From assembly GCF_030530745.1 (NCBI RefSeq), contig NZ_JAUMUI010000014.1:1-59764 (forward strand): a stretch of 59,764 bases of DNA. The letters are read 5' to 3'. Under the pieces are notes generated by a model. The model saw only the letters and a program-made list of their open reading frames with translations. It did no database searches and was not told where the DNA came from. Source of the stretch: Neisseria sp. (GTDB lineage: Bacteria > Pseudomonadota > Gammaproteobacteria > Burkholderiales > Neisseriaceae). Shown here piece after piece: positions 23,975 to 41,584 of this stretch. How positions within the stretch are numbered: position 1 is the stretch's first letter; each line of letters starts with the position of its first letter. The position numbers and the translations under genes are program-made.

Positions 23975-24223
23975 TCAGGCGGCGGCTTTTTGCTCTTTAA
24001 CCAGCTTGGCCACGGCTTCGCTGACTTGTGCGCCTTGGGCGACCCAGTGGTTCAGGCGCTCGGCGTTCAGGCGCACGCGCTCCTGTTTTTCGTTGGCAAC
24101 GGGGTTGTAGAAGCCCACGCGCTCGATAAAGCGGCCGTCGCGGCGGTTGCGCGAGTCAGTTACGATTACGTTGAAAAACGGGCGGTGTTTCGAGCCGCCG
24201 CGTGCTAAACGGATAACTACCAT
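23975..24223 (-). CDS. rpsP: 30S ribosomal protein S16
   Basis: An 82-residue S16 starting [12 protein letters not shown] with [10 protein letters not shown] near 33-42. It is the first gene of the rpsP-rimM-trmD-rplS operon. AAAAGGAATTTC precedes the ATG. Confidence 0.97.
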
Positions 24224-24277: not shown

Positions 24278-26539
24278 TTAGGATTTTAGTGCAAGTATTT
24301 GTTGTTTTAAATTGTGCCTGATGTTGTTTACGGGCGTGTTTTTCGGTTCGGCCAGGTTTAAAACGGCTTCGGCAAGGGCGCTGTCGTGCGGCGAGGGGGT
24401 GAGGGCGAAGCCGAGTTTGCCGGCCAGTTTCTGCATGGCGGGATTGCTTTGCAGAATTTCTGCGGCCATTTCGCGGTAGCCTTGCTGTTTGGCCGTCTGA
24501 ATGATTTGTTCCATCAGGTGTGCGGCCAGCCCTTGGCCTTGTGCGGCGGGGGCGGCGCTGATGCCGAATTCGCAGCGCCCTGCCGTATCGGCAGGGCCGA
24601 AGCGGGCCGCGCCCAGCCAGGTGCCGTTTTCTGTTTCGGCTATAACGGCTCCTTCGCAGGAATAGTCGAGGTTGCAGGCGCGGGCGAGCATGGCGGGGCT
24701 GAGTTCGGCAAGGTGCATCATGTAGCGGGTGTAGCGCTGTTCTTCGGGCAGGCTGCGCACGAAATTCTGTTTGGCTTCGGCGTCTTCGGGCAGCAGCGGC
24801 CTGATGCGGACGGTTTGGCCGTTTTTCAGGGTGAAGGTGTGCGCGGGTTTGGCGGGATAGGGGGCGAACACGTTTTCGACGGTTTCGGCCTGCGGGTCGG
24901 TTTGGATGTCGGAAGTGGTGCCCGCGCTGCCGGCGGAAACGGTGATTCCGGTGATAAACGGCACGGCGGCGGCGGTGTTCAGGCTGTGCAGCAGTTGGTG
25001 TATGGTTTTTTGGTGGCGTTTCAAACCGGCCTGGCGGATCAGGTGTTCGGAGTCAAGCGTGGTAAAGGGCGGCAGCACGGCCAGCGTGTGTGCGGGGGTG
25101 CGGGCGTAGAGTACGGCGCCGTAACGGGCGTGGCGTTTGAAGGTGAGCACGAACTGCGGGTTGGCTTCGGGCGTTTTGTATTCGGGCAGGTATAGGGCTT
25201 TGGCCAGCTGCGGCAGGTCGGCCGGGGTTTTCTGTATTTCGCGCACCGAAGGTGTTTTCAGATGGCCCGGCAGGGGTTTGGCGGTTTGGTTCTGCTGCTG
25301 TTTCAGGCCGGTGTAAACGTTTTGGCAGCGGAATGCCTGCAAGGCTTGCGCGGGGCGGGTAAATTGCAGCAGGCCGTCTGAAAACGGGCTGCTGATGAAG
25401 AGGGGTTTGTCGGTTTGGCGTTGCAGGTTGGTCATCAGCCGGGTGATGTTTTCGGCGGTGTTGTCGGCGGTGGGGGCGATAACGGCCAGCAGGGCTTCGG
25501 TTTGGCTGTGTTGCAGGCAGCTTTCCGCCAGTGCGCGGTAGCGTGTGGGGGGGGGGTGGCCGCCGATGTGGCCGTAGGGGTTTTCAGACGGCCTGCCGTC
25601 GTCGGGCAGCGGGTGCAGTGTAATGCCGAGTTCGTCGGCCTGGGTTTGCAGGCTGCCGCAGGGCTCGTTGGCGATAATATGCAGTTTGCGGGCGGATTTG
25701 TCGGCAGCGGAAAGGGCGTGGAGGGCTGCGGCGGTTTCGTCGGGCGTGAATGCCGGCATGAAACCGCAGCGGCGCGAGAGTGCCTGCAGCACGGCGCGTT
25801 CTTCTTCGTCGGCATAATGGCCGACCGACAGCAGCACGGGTTTGCGGCGGGCGGCTCGGCGTATGGCGCTGAAGAGCCGGCGCTGGTTTTCGTGCGGGTT
25901 GTGCGATACGGCAATCAGCCGGGTGGCCGGATCGGCAGCGAGCATGTCGATAAAGTCGGCCGAAACGGTGGGGCTGAGCGGATAATGCAGGCCGATATGG
26001 CATGAAACGCCCGGCCCGGCCTGCGACATTTGGGCTGCCAAGCGCGCGCTTTCCGAGGCGTGGCCGCTGATGATGCCCACGCCGCCTGCGGGCAGGTCGG
26101 GATAGATGCCGGTGTTCAGGCCCGAAGCGGGCACCTGCAAGGCTGCGGGGTGGCATACGGTGATGCGCACGTTGGATTTGCGCATTTTCCGCAATGCTTC
26201 CTGCGCCTGCTCCAACGCCTCGGGGGCGAGTCCGTCCCAATCCTGCACCAAAACGGCATGGGGGATATTCTGTTTGCGGCAGGCTTTCAGCACGGCTTCG
26301 TAGCTTGCGGGTGGGGTGAGTACCAGCGCCATGTCGGCCGCGTCGGGCAGGCGGTTCAGGTTGGCGTAGGCCTTCATGCCGCCCACGGTTTTGTGGCGCA
26401 GGTTAACCGGCGTTATCTGCCCGCCGAAAGGGGTGCGCAAAAGCGCGGTCAGCACGTGCCCGCCCAAGCTGTGCGGGCGTTCGCTGGCGCCGATAACGAT
26501 CAGATGGCGGGGGGCTGGGGAAACGGGCCGGTTGTGCAT
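24278..26539 (-). CDS. Pat/PatZ-like protein lysine acetyltransferase with a C10 tract
   Basis: A 753-residue protein with the order of PatZ: a CoA-binding Rossmann domain (G-A-S-E-R-P-H-S-L-G, about 18-27), a succinyl-CoA-ligase-like part (about 140-290), a short degenerate ATP-grasp-like region and a C-terminal GNAT domain (about 580-730). PatZ enzymes acetylate lysines of metabolic enzymes such as acetyl-CoA synthetase. E. coli PatZ has 886 residues, so the middle is shortened. I chose the ATG at 26,539 because AAGGA lies 8 nt upstream; a 12-residue longer form begins at 26,575. Ten C in a row (25,547-25,556 as G on plus) encode H-P-P-P; slippage would break the frame and remove the GNAT domain. 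Confidence 0.8.
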   Translation of the reverse strand: MHNRPVSPAPRHLIVIGASERPHSLGGHVLTALLRTPFGGQITPVNLRHKTVGGMKAYANLNRLPDAADMALVLTPPASYEAVLKACRKQNIPHAVLVQDWDGLAPEALEQAQEALRKMRKSNVRITVCHPAALQVPASGLNTGIYPDLPAGGVGIISGHASESARLAAQMSQAGPGVSCHIGLHYPLSPTVSADFIDMLAADPATRLIAVSHNPHENQRRLFSAIRRAARRKPVLLSVGHYADEEERAVLQALSRRCGFMPAFTPDETAAALHALSAADKSARKLHIIANEPCGSLQTQADELGITLHPLPDDGRPSENPYGHIGGHPPPTRYRALAESCLQHSQTEALLAVIAPTADNTAENITRLMTNLQRQTDKPLFISSPFSDGLLQFTRPAQALQAFRCQNVYTGLKQQQNQTAKPLPGHLKTPSVREIQKTPADLPQLAKALYLPEYKTPEANPQFVLTFKRHARYGAVLYARTPAHTLAVLPPFTTLDSEHLIRQAGLKRHQKTIHQLLHSLNTAAAVPFITGITVSAGSAGTTSDIQTDPQAETVENVFAPYPAKPAHTFTLKNGQTVRIRPLLPEDAEAKQNFVRSLPEEQRYTRYMMHLAELSPAMLARACNLDYSCEGAVIAETENGTWLGAARFGPADTAGRCEFGISAAPAAQGQGLAAHLMEQIIQTAKQQGYREMAAEILQSNPAMQKLAGKLGFALTPSPHDSALAEAVLNLAEPKNTPVNNIRHNLKQQILALKS
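25547..25556 (-). repeat. C10 homopolymer inside the Pat-like gene
   Basis: Ten consecutive G on the plus strand, C on the coding strand, at about codon 329 of the acetyltransferase gene. Neisseria phase-variable genes carry tracts of this length. Loss of one base leads to a frame closed by TGA at 25,435-25,437. Confidence 0.75.
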
Positions 26540-26626
26540 GGTGTGGTTTCCTTGTGGTTGTGGGGGGGCACCCACGGGGCTTCAACGGATAATATGCCGG
26601 TATTATCCTTTGGAATCGTTCACCGT

Positions 26627-38458: not shown

Positions 38459-38587
38459 GGCTTACTCCTTCGGTTGGGTTGTGCCGCCCGTGTTGGCGGC
38501 GGAAATCGGTGTGTTTGCGGTTGGCGTCTGTTGATAATGACCCTGGGCAACCGTAGAAAGAATCAATTTTTAGGGCTTTCACTATAA

Positions 38588-38639
38588 CAGGCCGTCTGAA
38601 AGGTTTTGCTGATGCAGATTAAATTTTTCAGACGGCCTG
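38588..38639 (-). terminator. DUS-pair terminator after rpoN
   Basis: CAGGCCGTCTGAAA and TTTCAGACGGCCTG, 14-bp arms, 14 bp beyond the rpoN stop. It separates rpoN from hpf. Confidence 0.65.
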
Positions 38640-38653
38640 CCTGATGCGGGCCG

Positions 38654-40009
38654 TTACGGCCTGCGTTGGTGTGCGTTCGGAATATTCAGCGATTCGCGGT
38701 ATTTGGCTACGGTGCGGCGGGCAATGTCGATACCCTGCTGTTTGAGCAGCCTGCTTAAGGTTTCGTCGGAATGCGGTTTATTTTTGTCTTCTCCCTCGAC
38801 CAGTTGGGTAATCACGGCTTTTACCGCGCTTTGGCTGACCCCTCCTTCCCCGTCCCCGTCGGCGGCAACGGCTTGTGTGAAGAAATAGCGTAACGCAAAC
38901 ACCCCGCGCGGGCAAGCCAAATATTTGTGGTTGACGGCGCGCGACACGGTGCTTTCGGCCACGCCCAGCGCGGCGGCAGCATCTTTTATCAGCATGGGGG
39001 TGAGGCCGATTTCGCCGAATACGAAAAAATCTTCCTGGTTTTCCACGATATATTCGGCCAGCCGCATCACGGTGCTTTTGCGCAGCTCGAGGCTGTCGAT
39101 TTTTTGGCGTGCTTCACTGAGTTTTTCTTTCCATTCGGGGCTGACATCGCCCGCTTGTTTGAGCAGTTCGCAATATTCGCTGTTGAGCCGCACTTTCGGC
39201 CACACGCGTTCGTTGCTGCTGACCGACCAGCCGCTTTTGGTTTCTTTCACCCAAATATCGGGCTGCACATAGGCGGTAGGCTCGGCGGAAGCGAAACCGT
39301 AGGCGGGATAGGGGTTGAGTTTGGCGATCAGGTCTAAGGCCGTCTGAAGGGTTTCGGCTTCGGCATCGGGAAAATATTTGCGGAATTTGGCGGTGTTCTG
39401 CTGGCGGCTTCGGCTTAGGTCGTCAAGATGCTGCTGCACGATTTTGGCGGCAAGCCGCCGCTCGGGTGAGGAGGGCAGGCGCATCAGTTGCAGCAGCAGC
39501 GATTCGGTGAGGTTGGCGGCGCCCACGCCCGGAGGGTCGAAAGTTTGGAGCAAATCGAGCGCGTTCTGCATATCTTCTTCTTCCAGCATCCACTCTAATG
39601 GCGTTTGGTCGAGCACATCGGCGATGCTGTCGGTGAAGTAGCCTTGTTCGTCGAGAAAGTCAATCAGGATATGCACCCGCGCGGCTTCGGTTTCGCTCAA
39701 GGGGTGTTCGCACACTTGTTTGTGCAGATAGGCGTTGAAGTCGTCTTCTTCGGCGATGGTTGCCCAAACGTCTTCGGCATCGTCGCCGCCGATTTGGTTG
39801 GTTTTGGGCTGCGCGGCAGAAATACGCTCGAATTCGGCTTCTGCCGCTTCGTCGTATTCGGCGCGCTCCAAAAGCGGGTTGTCTTGCAGCCAGTCGCCGA
39901 CTTCGCGGTCGAGTTCCAGCCCCGACATTTGCAGTATGCGCAGCGACTGTTGCAGCCGCTGGTTGAGCTGTTGGGTTTGCCTGAGTTTTAATCCTATGTT
40001 TTGACTCAT
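38654..40009 (-). CDS. rpoN: RNA polymerase sigma-54 factor
   Basis: A 451-residue sigma-54. Region I (about 1-50, Gln/Leu-rich Q-Q-L-N-Q-R-L-Q-Q-S-L-R-I-L-Q-M) binds activators, an acidic region II follows, the core-binding region lies at about 120-310, the HTH is G-V-A-E-S-T-V-S-R-A-V-N near 355-366, and the RpoN box A-R-R-T-V-A-K-Y-R-E is near 431-440. All parts seem complete. Gonococcus and meningococcus are known to carry a shortened rpoN-like gene without HTH and box, so this copy looks functional by comparison. No bEBP activator gene lies in the window. Confidence 0.95.
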   Translation of the reverse strand: MSQNIGLKLRQTQQLNQRLQQSLRILQMSGLELDREVGDWLQDNPLLERAEYDEAAEAEFERISAAQPKTNQIGGDDAEDVWATIAEEDDFNAYLHKQVCEHPLSETEAARVHILIDFLDEQGYFTDSIADVLDQTPLEWMLEEEDMQNALDLLQTFDPPGVGAANLTESLLLQLMRLPSSPERRLAAKIVQQHLDDLSRSRQQNTAKFRKYFPDAEAETLQTALDLIAKLNPYPAYGFASAEPTAYVQPDIWVKETKSGWSVSSNERVWPKVRLNSEYCELLKQAGDVSPEWKEKLSEARQKIDSLELRKSTVMRLAEYIVENQEDFFVFGEIGLTPMLIKDAAAALGVAESTVSRAVNHKYLACPRGVFALRYFFTQAVAADGDGEGGVSQSAVKAVITQLVEGEDKNKPHSDETLSRLLKQQGIDIARRTVAKYRESLNIPNAHQRRP

Positions 40010-40092
40010 GTTGTTATTTTCTTCTTGAGTAAGAGCGTAATGTGCGGTTTGTGCCCGGCCGGATTAATCCCCCGACTGCCGGCCGGCTGTTA

Positions 40093-40821
40093 TTAATAGT
40101 TGAAGTTTTCGCCCAAATACACTGCACGCACCTGTTCGTTGCTGACCAGTTCTTCGGGGTGGCCCGAGGCCAGCACGGTGCCGTCGCTGATGATGTAGGC
40201 CCGGTCGCAGATGCGCAGGGTTTCGCGCACGTTGTGATCGGTTATCAGCACGCCGATGCCGCGTGTTTTCAGAAAACCGATGATTTTCTGAATGTCGATA
40301 ACGGCAATCGGATCAACGCCGGCAAAGGGTTCGTCGAGCAGGATGAAGCGCGGCTGCATGGCCAATACGCGGGCGATTTCCACGCGGCGGCGTTCTCCGC
40401 CCGAGAGCGACGGCGCGGGGTTGTTGCGCAAGTGCCCGATGTTCAGATCGGCCAAGAGTTTTTCAAGCTCGGCATCGATTTCGCTTTTGTCTTTCAGGCG
40501 GATTTCCAAAATGGCGCGGATATTCTGCTCCACCGTCATTTTGCGGAAAATCGATGCTTCCTGCGGCAGGTAGCCCAAGCCCAAACGGGCGCGCTCGTGT
40601 ATCGGCAGGTGGCGGATTTCTCGGCCGTCTAATTCTACGCTGCCTGCATCGGCGGCAATCAGCCCCACTATCATATAAAAGCTGGTGGTTTTGCCGGCGC
40701 CGTTGGGGCCGAGCAGGCCGACTACTTCGCCGCTTTCGATTTCCAGCGAAAAGTTTTTCACCACTTGGCGCTTTTTGAAGGTTTTTTGCAGGTTTTGTAC
40801 GTTTAAGCGGCTTTGGCTCAT
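40093..40821 (-). CDS. lptB: LPS transport ATPase LptB
   Basis: A 242-residue ATPase that powers LptFG extraction of lipooligosaccharide. Walker [10 protein letters not shown] (about 38-46), [13 protein letters not shown] near 139-151 and Walker [14 protein letters not shown] are exact family motifs. It lies between lptA and rpoN, an order conserved in proteobacteria, but an element remnant and a DUS hairpin separate it from lptA. Confidence 0.96.
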
Positions 40822-40942
40822 ATGTGTGCTCTTTGGTGATGGTTACTATTGTAATCGGTTTTCAGGCCGTCTGAAAGGTTTTTTTAATCTTTGTGAAGAT
40901 TTGTATGGCTTGATTCTTGTTTGCGCACACCGTGGCAAATAT

Positions 40943-40992
40943 GTGCGGCGCTTTGAACTGCATCCGCATCCGGCATTTTTGCAAAGGTATCA
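40943..40992 (+). mobile_element. Degenerate end of the 42,806-42,968 inverted-repeat element
   Basis: Aligns without gaps to 42,919-42,968, about 39 of 50 positions identical by eye, sharing TTGAACTGCATCC and TTTTGCAAAGG. No left end is seen, so it is a truncated copy between lptB and lptA. Confidence 0.55.
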
Positions 40993-41043
40993 GGCCGTCT
41001 GAAAAGCGGTGCGGTGTTATTGCCGGTTGTTTCAGACGGCCTG
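40991..41043 (-). terminator. DUS-pair terminator after lptA
   Basis: CAGGCCGTCTGAAA and TTTCAGACGGCCTG, 4 bp beyond the lptA stop. If active it would make lptB-rpoN depend on another promoter or readthrough. Confidence 0.6.
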
Positions 41044-41047
41044 TGGG

Positions 41048-41584
41048 TTATTTTTTCTTACCTTGCGATTGGGTGCCGGAAGGCTGGATAACCACGGTTA
41101 CGCGCTTGCCGCTTTTGTCGCCGGAAGCCTTGCTGCCTTGAACGGTATAAACTTCGGTGCGGGTGTTGTAGGTAATCACGGCGCCTTCGGCCAAGTCGCC
41201 GCCGCGTTCTACTTTGGCGTTGCCGATCAGCTTCACGATGTTGGTGGCCGACGAGTAATCGATGTTGTTGGCACGGCCTTTCACGGTGCCTTTGCCGCCG
41301 TCGAGCGTTTGGCTGAAGCGCACGGGGCTGCCGCTGGCGTTCATCTGCTGCTCGCCTTTGCTGTTGCGCGACACGCGCACGCTGCCGGCACTGATGTTGA
41401 GTGTGCCTTGTTTGATGATCACGTTGCCGCTGAACGTGGTTACTTGGTTGGCCTGGTCGAGCGAGCCTTGGTCGGCTTCGATTTGAATCGGCTGCTGCCG
41501 GTCGCTTTCGAGCGCGAGGGCGGGGGCGGCGGAAACGGCGGCTAAGGCGGCCAGTAGGGCGGCTTTATAGATTTTTCGGGTCAT
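41048..41584 (-). CDS. lptA: LPS periplasmic bridge protein LptA
   Basis: A 178-residue periplasmic protein with a signal peptide cleaved after A-L-A before L-E-S-D (about residue 25). The OstA-type beta-jellyroll contains I-Q-I-E-A-D-Q-G-S-L-D and T-F-S-G-N-V-I-I-K-Q-G-T-L. The C-terminus is Ser/Lys-rich. It overlaps lptC by 20 bases. Confidence 0.93.
   Translation of the reverse strand: MTRKIYKAALLAALAAVSAAPALALESDRQQPIQIEADQGSLDQANQVTTFSGNVIIKQGTLNISAGSVRVSRNSKGEQQMNASGSPVRFSQTLDGGKGTVKGRANNIDYSSATNIVKLIGNAKVERGGDLAEGAVITYNTRTEVYTVQGSKASGDKSGKRVTVVIQPSGTQSQGKKK

Follow-up and report, generated by a model that had tools for sequence, protein, structure and literature searches.

A ten-cytosine tract in the gene of a Pat-like acetyltransferase of Neisseria: probably an accidental slippery site rather than a selected switch

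The window, by which we mean the whole stretch of DNA analysed here (59,764 nucleotides of Neisseria sp., contig NZ_JAUMUI010000014.1), contains a gene for a probable protein-acetylating enzyme that carries ten C in a row inside its reading frame (minus strand, 25556 to 25547). The tract is real, and it is the sole C or G run of at least 8 in the window. The features of the locus are the following:

23975..24223, minus strand: next gene downstream, which we take from its sequence to be rpsP-like
24281..26539, minus strand: coding sequence of the Pat-like acetyltransferase, 753 codons, intact, with its stop codon at 24278-24280
24407..24811, minus strand: GNAT acetyltransferase domain, aa 577-711 (Pfam, E 4.5e-13)
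25053..25055, minus strand: TGA closing the frame after gain of one C (frame simulation)
25435..25437, minus strand: TGA closing the frame after loss of one C (frame simulation)
25547..25556, minus strand: C10 tract, codons 328 (third base) to 331 (run scan, frame simulation)
25583..25592, minus strand: GCCGTCTGAA, presumably a DNA-uptake-sequence core, inside the coding sequence and 26 bases before C10
25793..26086, minus strand: Succ_CoA_lig domain, aa 152-249 (Pfam, E 2e-8)
26162..26503, minus strand: CoA_binding_2 domain, aa 13-126 (Pfam, E 1.5e-15)
26562..26568, minus strand: C7 run in the leader, upstream of a Shine-Dalgarno-like AAGGA

The start codon was set by the upstream AAGGA and by the start of the gene in relatives; a GTG exists 12 codons further upstream. 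An earlier note on this DNA had proposed a Pat-like GNAT enzyme, and the three Pfam domains bear out that identity: the gene is a Pat-type fusion, in which a CoA-binding and a succinyl-CoA-ligase-like domain, resembling an NDP-forming acyl-CoA synthetase, are joined to GNAT. The defining feature of PatZ-type lysine acetyltransferases is an ATP-grasp domain between the two parts, for which no Pfam match was obtained in the 11 members scanned (this one and ten others). A family profile of 19 aligned rows matches 9it0 and 9isq, chains named Protein acetyltransferase for which the label PatZ (YfiQ) is our own reading, in two stretches, namely the acyl-CoA-synthetase-like N-terminal part and the C-terminal GNAT domain; residues about 400-653 of 9it0 fall outside both, and the Neisseria protein has 753 aa as compared to 886 and 877 aa. 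The match in two stretches, together with the missing ATP-grasp match, indicates a Pat-like acetyltransferase whose middle is reduced. When the structure of the window protein was predicted with its counterparts from L002 and L003, the mean pLDDT was 43.4, too low to use.

Purifying selection acts on the gene, which is intact; dN/dS over its whole length is 0.25 against G011 and 0.23-0.27 against three relatives (G011, G012 and G021). The part downstream of the tract that includes the GNAT domain (aa 557-753) gave 0.16 against G011 (range 0.16-0.21 against the three), while aa 328-556, which begin at the tract, are less constrained than the rest (0.50, 0.40 and 0.32 against G011, G012 and G021). 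A match to the rpsP-like gene follows the acetyltransferase in each of the 29 loci tested among the 39 other orthologues, and the search for promoters that would bear on polarity on rpsP returned weak promoter-like matches at 24283-24311 only.

Acetyl-CoA synthetase, which had been suggested as a target of the enzyme, is doubtful in this role, since the canonical form (TIGR02188) exceeds the curated cut-off in none of 47 genomes of the genus and in 7 of 14 control genomes; weaker TIGR02188 matches occur in all 47. Across the genus the Pat-like enzyme is thus found to be widespread, yet without a TIGR02188 protein over cut-off. A SIR2 family match, a candidate deacetylase, is present in 29 of the 47 genomes, this one included.

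The tract consists of the third base of His328 and the three CCC codons of Pro329-331, so that the expected in-frame run at about codon 329 was found as described (His-Pro-Pro-Pro, codons 328-331). Depending on the simulated length of the tract, the reading frame is open or closed. With 9 C translation stops at the TGA at 25437-25435 after 367 aa, exactly the stop codon that the earlier note had named for the loss of one C; with 11 C it stops at 25055-25053 after 495 aa, and with 7 or 13 C the frame stays open. Ten C also reach the length of 9 or more at which a survey with PhasomeIt regards poly-G/C tracts as putatively phase-variable, as its text states (PMC5953494). In both respects the tract resembles that of a contingency gene.

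The comparison with other species leads in a different direction. Orthologues exist in 40 of the 47 genomes (41 were listed; G017 was dropped, its match spanning only 55 residues), and those without one are G006, G017, G026, G030 and G041, all listed as 100% complete, as well as G031 (68%) and G033 (85%). Among the 39 other orthologues, one per species, for which either the site or the whole gene stretch was examined and of which several distant ones are gapped at the site, none has a C run of at least 7 there; the longest C run anywhere in the orthologue stretches examined is 7 (G023, G029, G032). In one scan the site pattern was unmatched in L002, L005, L024, L025 and L029, whose longest in-frame C run is at most 6. 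In the alignment, Pro-x-Pro recurs at the site and its middle residue varies. Retention of a long C run by orthologues, which the earlier note had proposed to check, is therefore not what we find, and the idea of a kept on/off switch finds no support in it: 0 of 39 have such a run, and in the nearest two it is broken by one G.

These two nearest relatives, G011 and G012, are 96.3% identical to each other and each 94.6% identical to this genome, and have CCCCGCCCCC at the site; the next relative has CCCCGCTCCC. Over a wider stretch, N. dentiae 1292RC1 (L002) and G011 read CACCCCGCCCCCGCA, this genome CACCCCCCCCCCACA, and G021, which is 86-87% identical to all three, AACCCCGCTCCCGCA; L002 and L005 are alike at the tract site. 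The nearest relatives thus encode His/Asn-Pro-Ala-Pro (CAC/AAC CCC GCC/GCT CCC). Since the G is common to G011, G012 and G021, and since G011 and G012 are mutually closest, the alignment indicates that G is ancestral and that one G-to-C change, from Ala to Pro, made C10 in this lineage. Synonymous changes interrupting the run in orthologues had been named as a finding that would speak against a switch; the interruption itself holds for both nearest relatives, but the change concerned is nonsynonymous (Ala/Pro).

How readily such a run arises depends on what is held constant. C or G runs of at least 10 appeared 0.05 times per window on average in third-order Markov copies and 0.0 times at order 2 (40 simulations each). 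In contrast, C10 was reached in 15.7% of 20,000 synonymous shuffles of the gene, in which protein and codon use are kept; 37 of its 62 Pro codons are CCC. The tract is rare on base composition, yet within reach given this protein and these codons.

Elsewhere in this genome, merging of 31 overlapping hits left 16 C/G runs of at least 9, of which 8 are of at least 10. The same count, with overlapping hits merged, is 3 in G011, 6 in G012 and 27 in G021, which places the number of tracts here within the range of relatives. Four of the other 15 tracts overlap hsdS (C9), a PilY1 family gene (C12), a PF12261 ORF (C10) and an ORF of 150 aa that has no match in Pfam (C9); as far as the ORFs around them show, the remaining ones are intergenic, at the mechanical 5' end of an ORF, or within further ORFs. 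In the PilY1 family (pilC-like) gene (L097:2983-2994) the 12-base G tract of the coding strand lies where frames of 393 aa and 798 aa overlap. The hsdS gene of NgoAV type carries a G/C tract in its reading frame. The type I specificity gene hsdS of this genome has C9 and split frames of 186 and 179 aa (L094:2999-3007), and that of G011 has C10 and one frame of 405 aa (L108:1501-1510, minus-strand numbering); this difference between relatives indicates that tract-length change does occur in the clade at a locus of the usual kind.

Long in-frame runs are also found in housekeeping genes of other genomes of the genus, none of which matches a tract of this genome: C11 in mnmE of G012 (L111, codons 3-6), C9 in trmD of G003 (L014:464-472, minus strand) and C9 in a HAD hydrolase of G011. 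TrmD is essential in bacteria, and its C9 is for this reason unlikely to be an off-switch. A C9 of G012 (L114) is situated in DNA 94.7% identical to window positions 38565-41580, a part of the window free of C or G runs of at least 7. Another C9 of G012, assigned to hrpA, was dropped as a housekeeping parallel, as the frame upstream of the tract is not HrpA-like; the hrpA frame itself (L112, about 1419-1530) looks truncated, perhaps by an insertion. Around the acetyltransferase gene, the loci of G011, G012 and G021 had no C run of at least 7 to compare with the leader C7 of this genome, and the leader in G007 (L019) has a C9 located 48-56 bases upstream of the start codon, where L020-L022 differ in sequence.

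Taken together, C10 is probably an accidental slippery site and not a selected switch of protein acetylation: one base change suffices to have made it here, and related species are without it. A C-rich Pro-x-Pro segment would have given rise to C10 as a by-product when one G-to-C change, from Ala to Pro, joined two short C runs into ten. On physical grounds the tract is expected to slip occasionally and would then yield truncated products of 367 or 495 aa without the GNAT domain, making the site a sporadic and probably low-rate mutable one. Against the accidental origin one may hold that C10 is long enough to count as putatively phase-variable by the published cut-off of 9, that the genome has 16 tracts of at least 9, with genes of classic switch types (hsdS, PilY1 family) among them, compared to 3 and 6 in G011 and G012, respectively (G021, however, has 27), and that aa 328-556, which begin at the tract, are under weaker constraint than the rest. 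Selection can still have acted on the new tract after a chance origin.

It is unlikely that the gene is truly phase-variable, with slipped-strand mispairing at C10 toggling the Pat-like enzyme, and with it the acetylation state in part of the population, and selection keeping the tract. The frames would fit an on/off switch, the C-tract of hsdS differs in length between related genomes (C9 here, C10 in G011), the acetyltransferase gene itself carries, at a second site, C7 in G023, C6 in G020 and C5 in G015, and the SIR2 family protein is at hand as a candidate deacetylase. However, the tract is not conserved and its position is mid-gene; such switches usually concern surface or DNA-modification genes, to which this one does not belong. 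In addition, no Acs of the canonical form exceeds the cut-off, and purifying selection acts on the downstream GNAT part.

The run at the other site lies near codon 454 and has seven C in G023 (L117), six in G020 (L106) and five in G015 (L107), which are 97.4-97.8% identical over the stretch; G040 (95%) is without it. In G023 the frame is open, in G020 and G015 it is shifted at the run, and in G015 the gene has lost a single base at two more places. To regard these frameshifts as sequencing noise was partly rejected on the positions of gaps: compared with G023 over about 15.7 kb, 13 gaps in G020 have a length not divisible by three, and the one in pat is alone in sitting more than 70 bases inside any of 15 listed ORFs, while G015 has 17 such gaps, three of them in pat and a further one (at G023 position 1076) 175 bases deep in a listed ORF of 172 aa. 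In G020, an error of base calling is a possible cause of the frameshift. The pattern in this clade looks like gene loss through C-run indels, and reversible switching would be a long shot. That Neisseria Pat-like enzymes have repeatedly been switched or lost by C-run slippage at different sites (C10 at codons 328-331; C7/C6/C5 near codon 454), so that acetylation would differ between populations or species, has a slim chance of being correct.

Very unlikely, in our estimation, is a Pat enzyme that is dispensable and drifting in the genus, in which C runs would start loss-of-function indels and the tract would be an early step to gene loss instead of a reversible switch. The frameshifts of G020 and G015 at C6 and C5, where G023 has C7, with the two additional deletions of G015, would agree with it, as would the presence of orthologues in 40 of 47 genomes, five of the seven genomes without one being listed as at least 99% complete; but the gene is intact here, with a dN/dS near 0.25. 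Least probable of all, and only marginally credible, is that an error of base calling or assembly hid an interruption of the run, CCCC-G-CCCCC: one base within a C-rich stretch does set this genome apart from both nearest relatives, but so does a neighbouring change (GCA to ACA), total length is the same and the frame open, and 42 places differ from the base common to G011, G012 and G021, by changes of several types, two of them G>C.

The accidental origin that we favour fits the description, in the text of the PhasomeIt survey, of Neisseria tracts as sporadic and poorly conserved, with novel phase-variable genes often in one isolate only (PMC5953494). C10 resembles the sporadic loci of that survey in being an above-cut-off tract in a conserved gene of metabolic type and in one lineage; its difference, and a point against the accidental reading, is that their sporadic metabolic genes tend to have short, invariant tracts whose length is a multiple of 3, and an acetyltransferase, Pat-like or other, is not mentioned in the main text of that paper. 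The G7 tract of siaD in Neisseria meningitidis is held there, from its genome context, to have arisen by chance (PMC5953494), and in this it is like the run described here; switching of siaD has however been observed, at a rate under 1e-5, and the present tract is longer. A further comparison is the phase-variable hsdS of NgoAV type, the subject of PMC9577141. Such a gene is similar in its G/C tract in a Neisseria reading frame, and this genome's hsdS has one as well; the difference is that tract length at hsdS varies between related genomes, while the C10 of pat is known from one genome. A ranking of meningococcal candidates makes no mention of an acetyltransferase in its main text (PMC5084427). 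As portions of other papers state, sequence alignments suggest that acetyltransferases may be present in N. gonorrhoeae (PMC5487020), poly(C) and poly(G) tracts have no significant tendency to lie nearer to gene starts (PMC2831843), and phase variation figures only as general background on H. pylori (PMC12273574). Our searches found no paper combining the phrases for phase variation and lysine acetyltransferase, and none was among the matches listed for broader searches.

The tract, then, is real and its origin appears mundane; a switch is possible, and the comparison of orthologues lends it no support. If C10 did switch, the enzyme would be a phase-variable regulator of protein modification, in parallel to the phase-variable DNA methyltransferases. 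More generally, the Pro codons of a C-rich Neisseria gene easily produce a convincing-looking contingency tract, and orthologues need to be compared before such a tract is called a switch.
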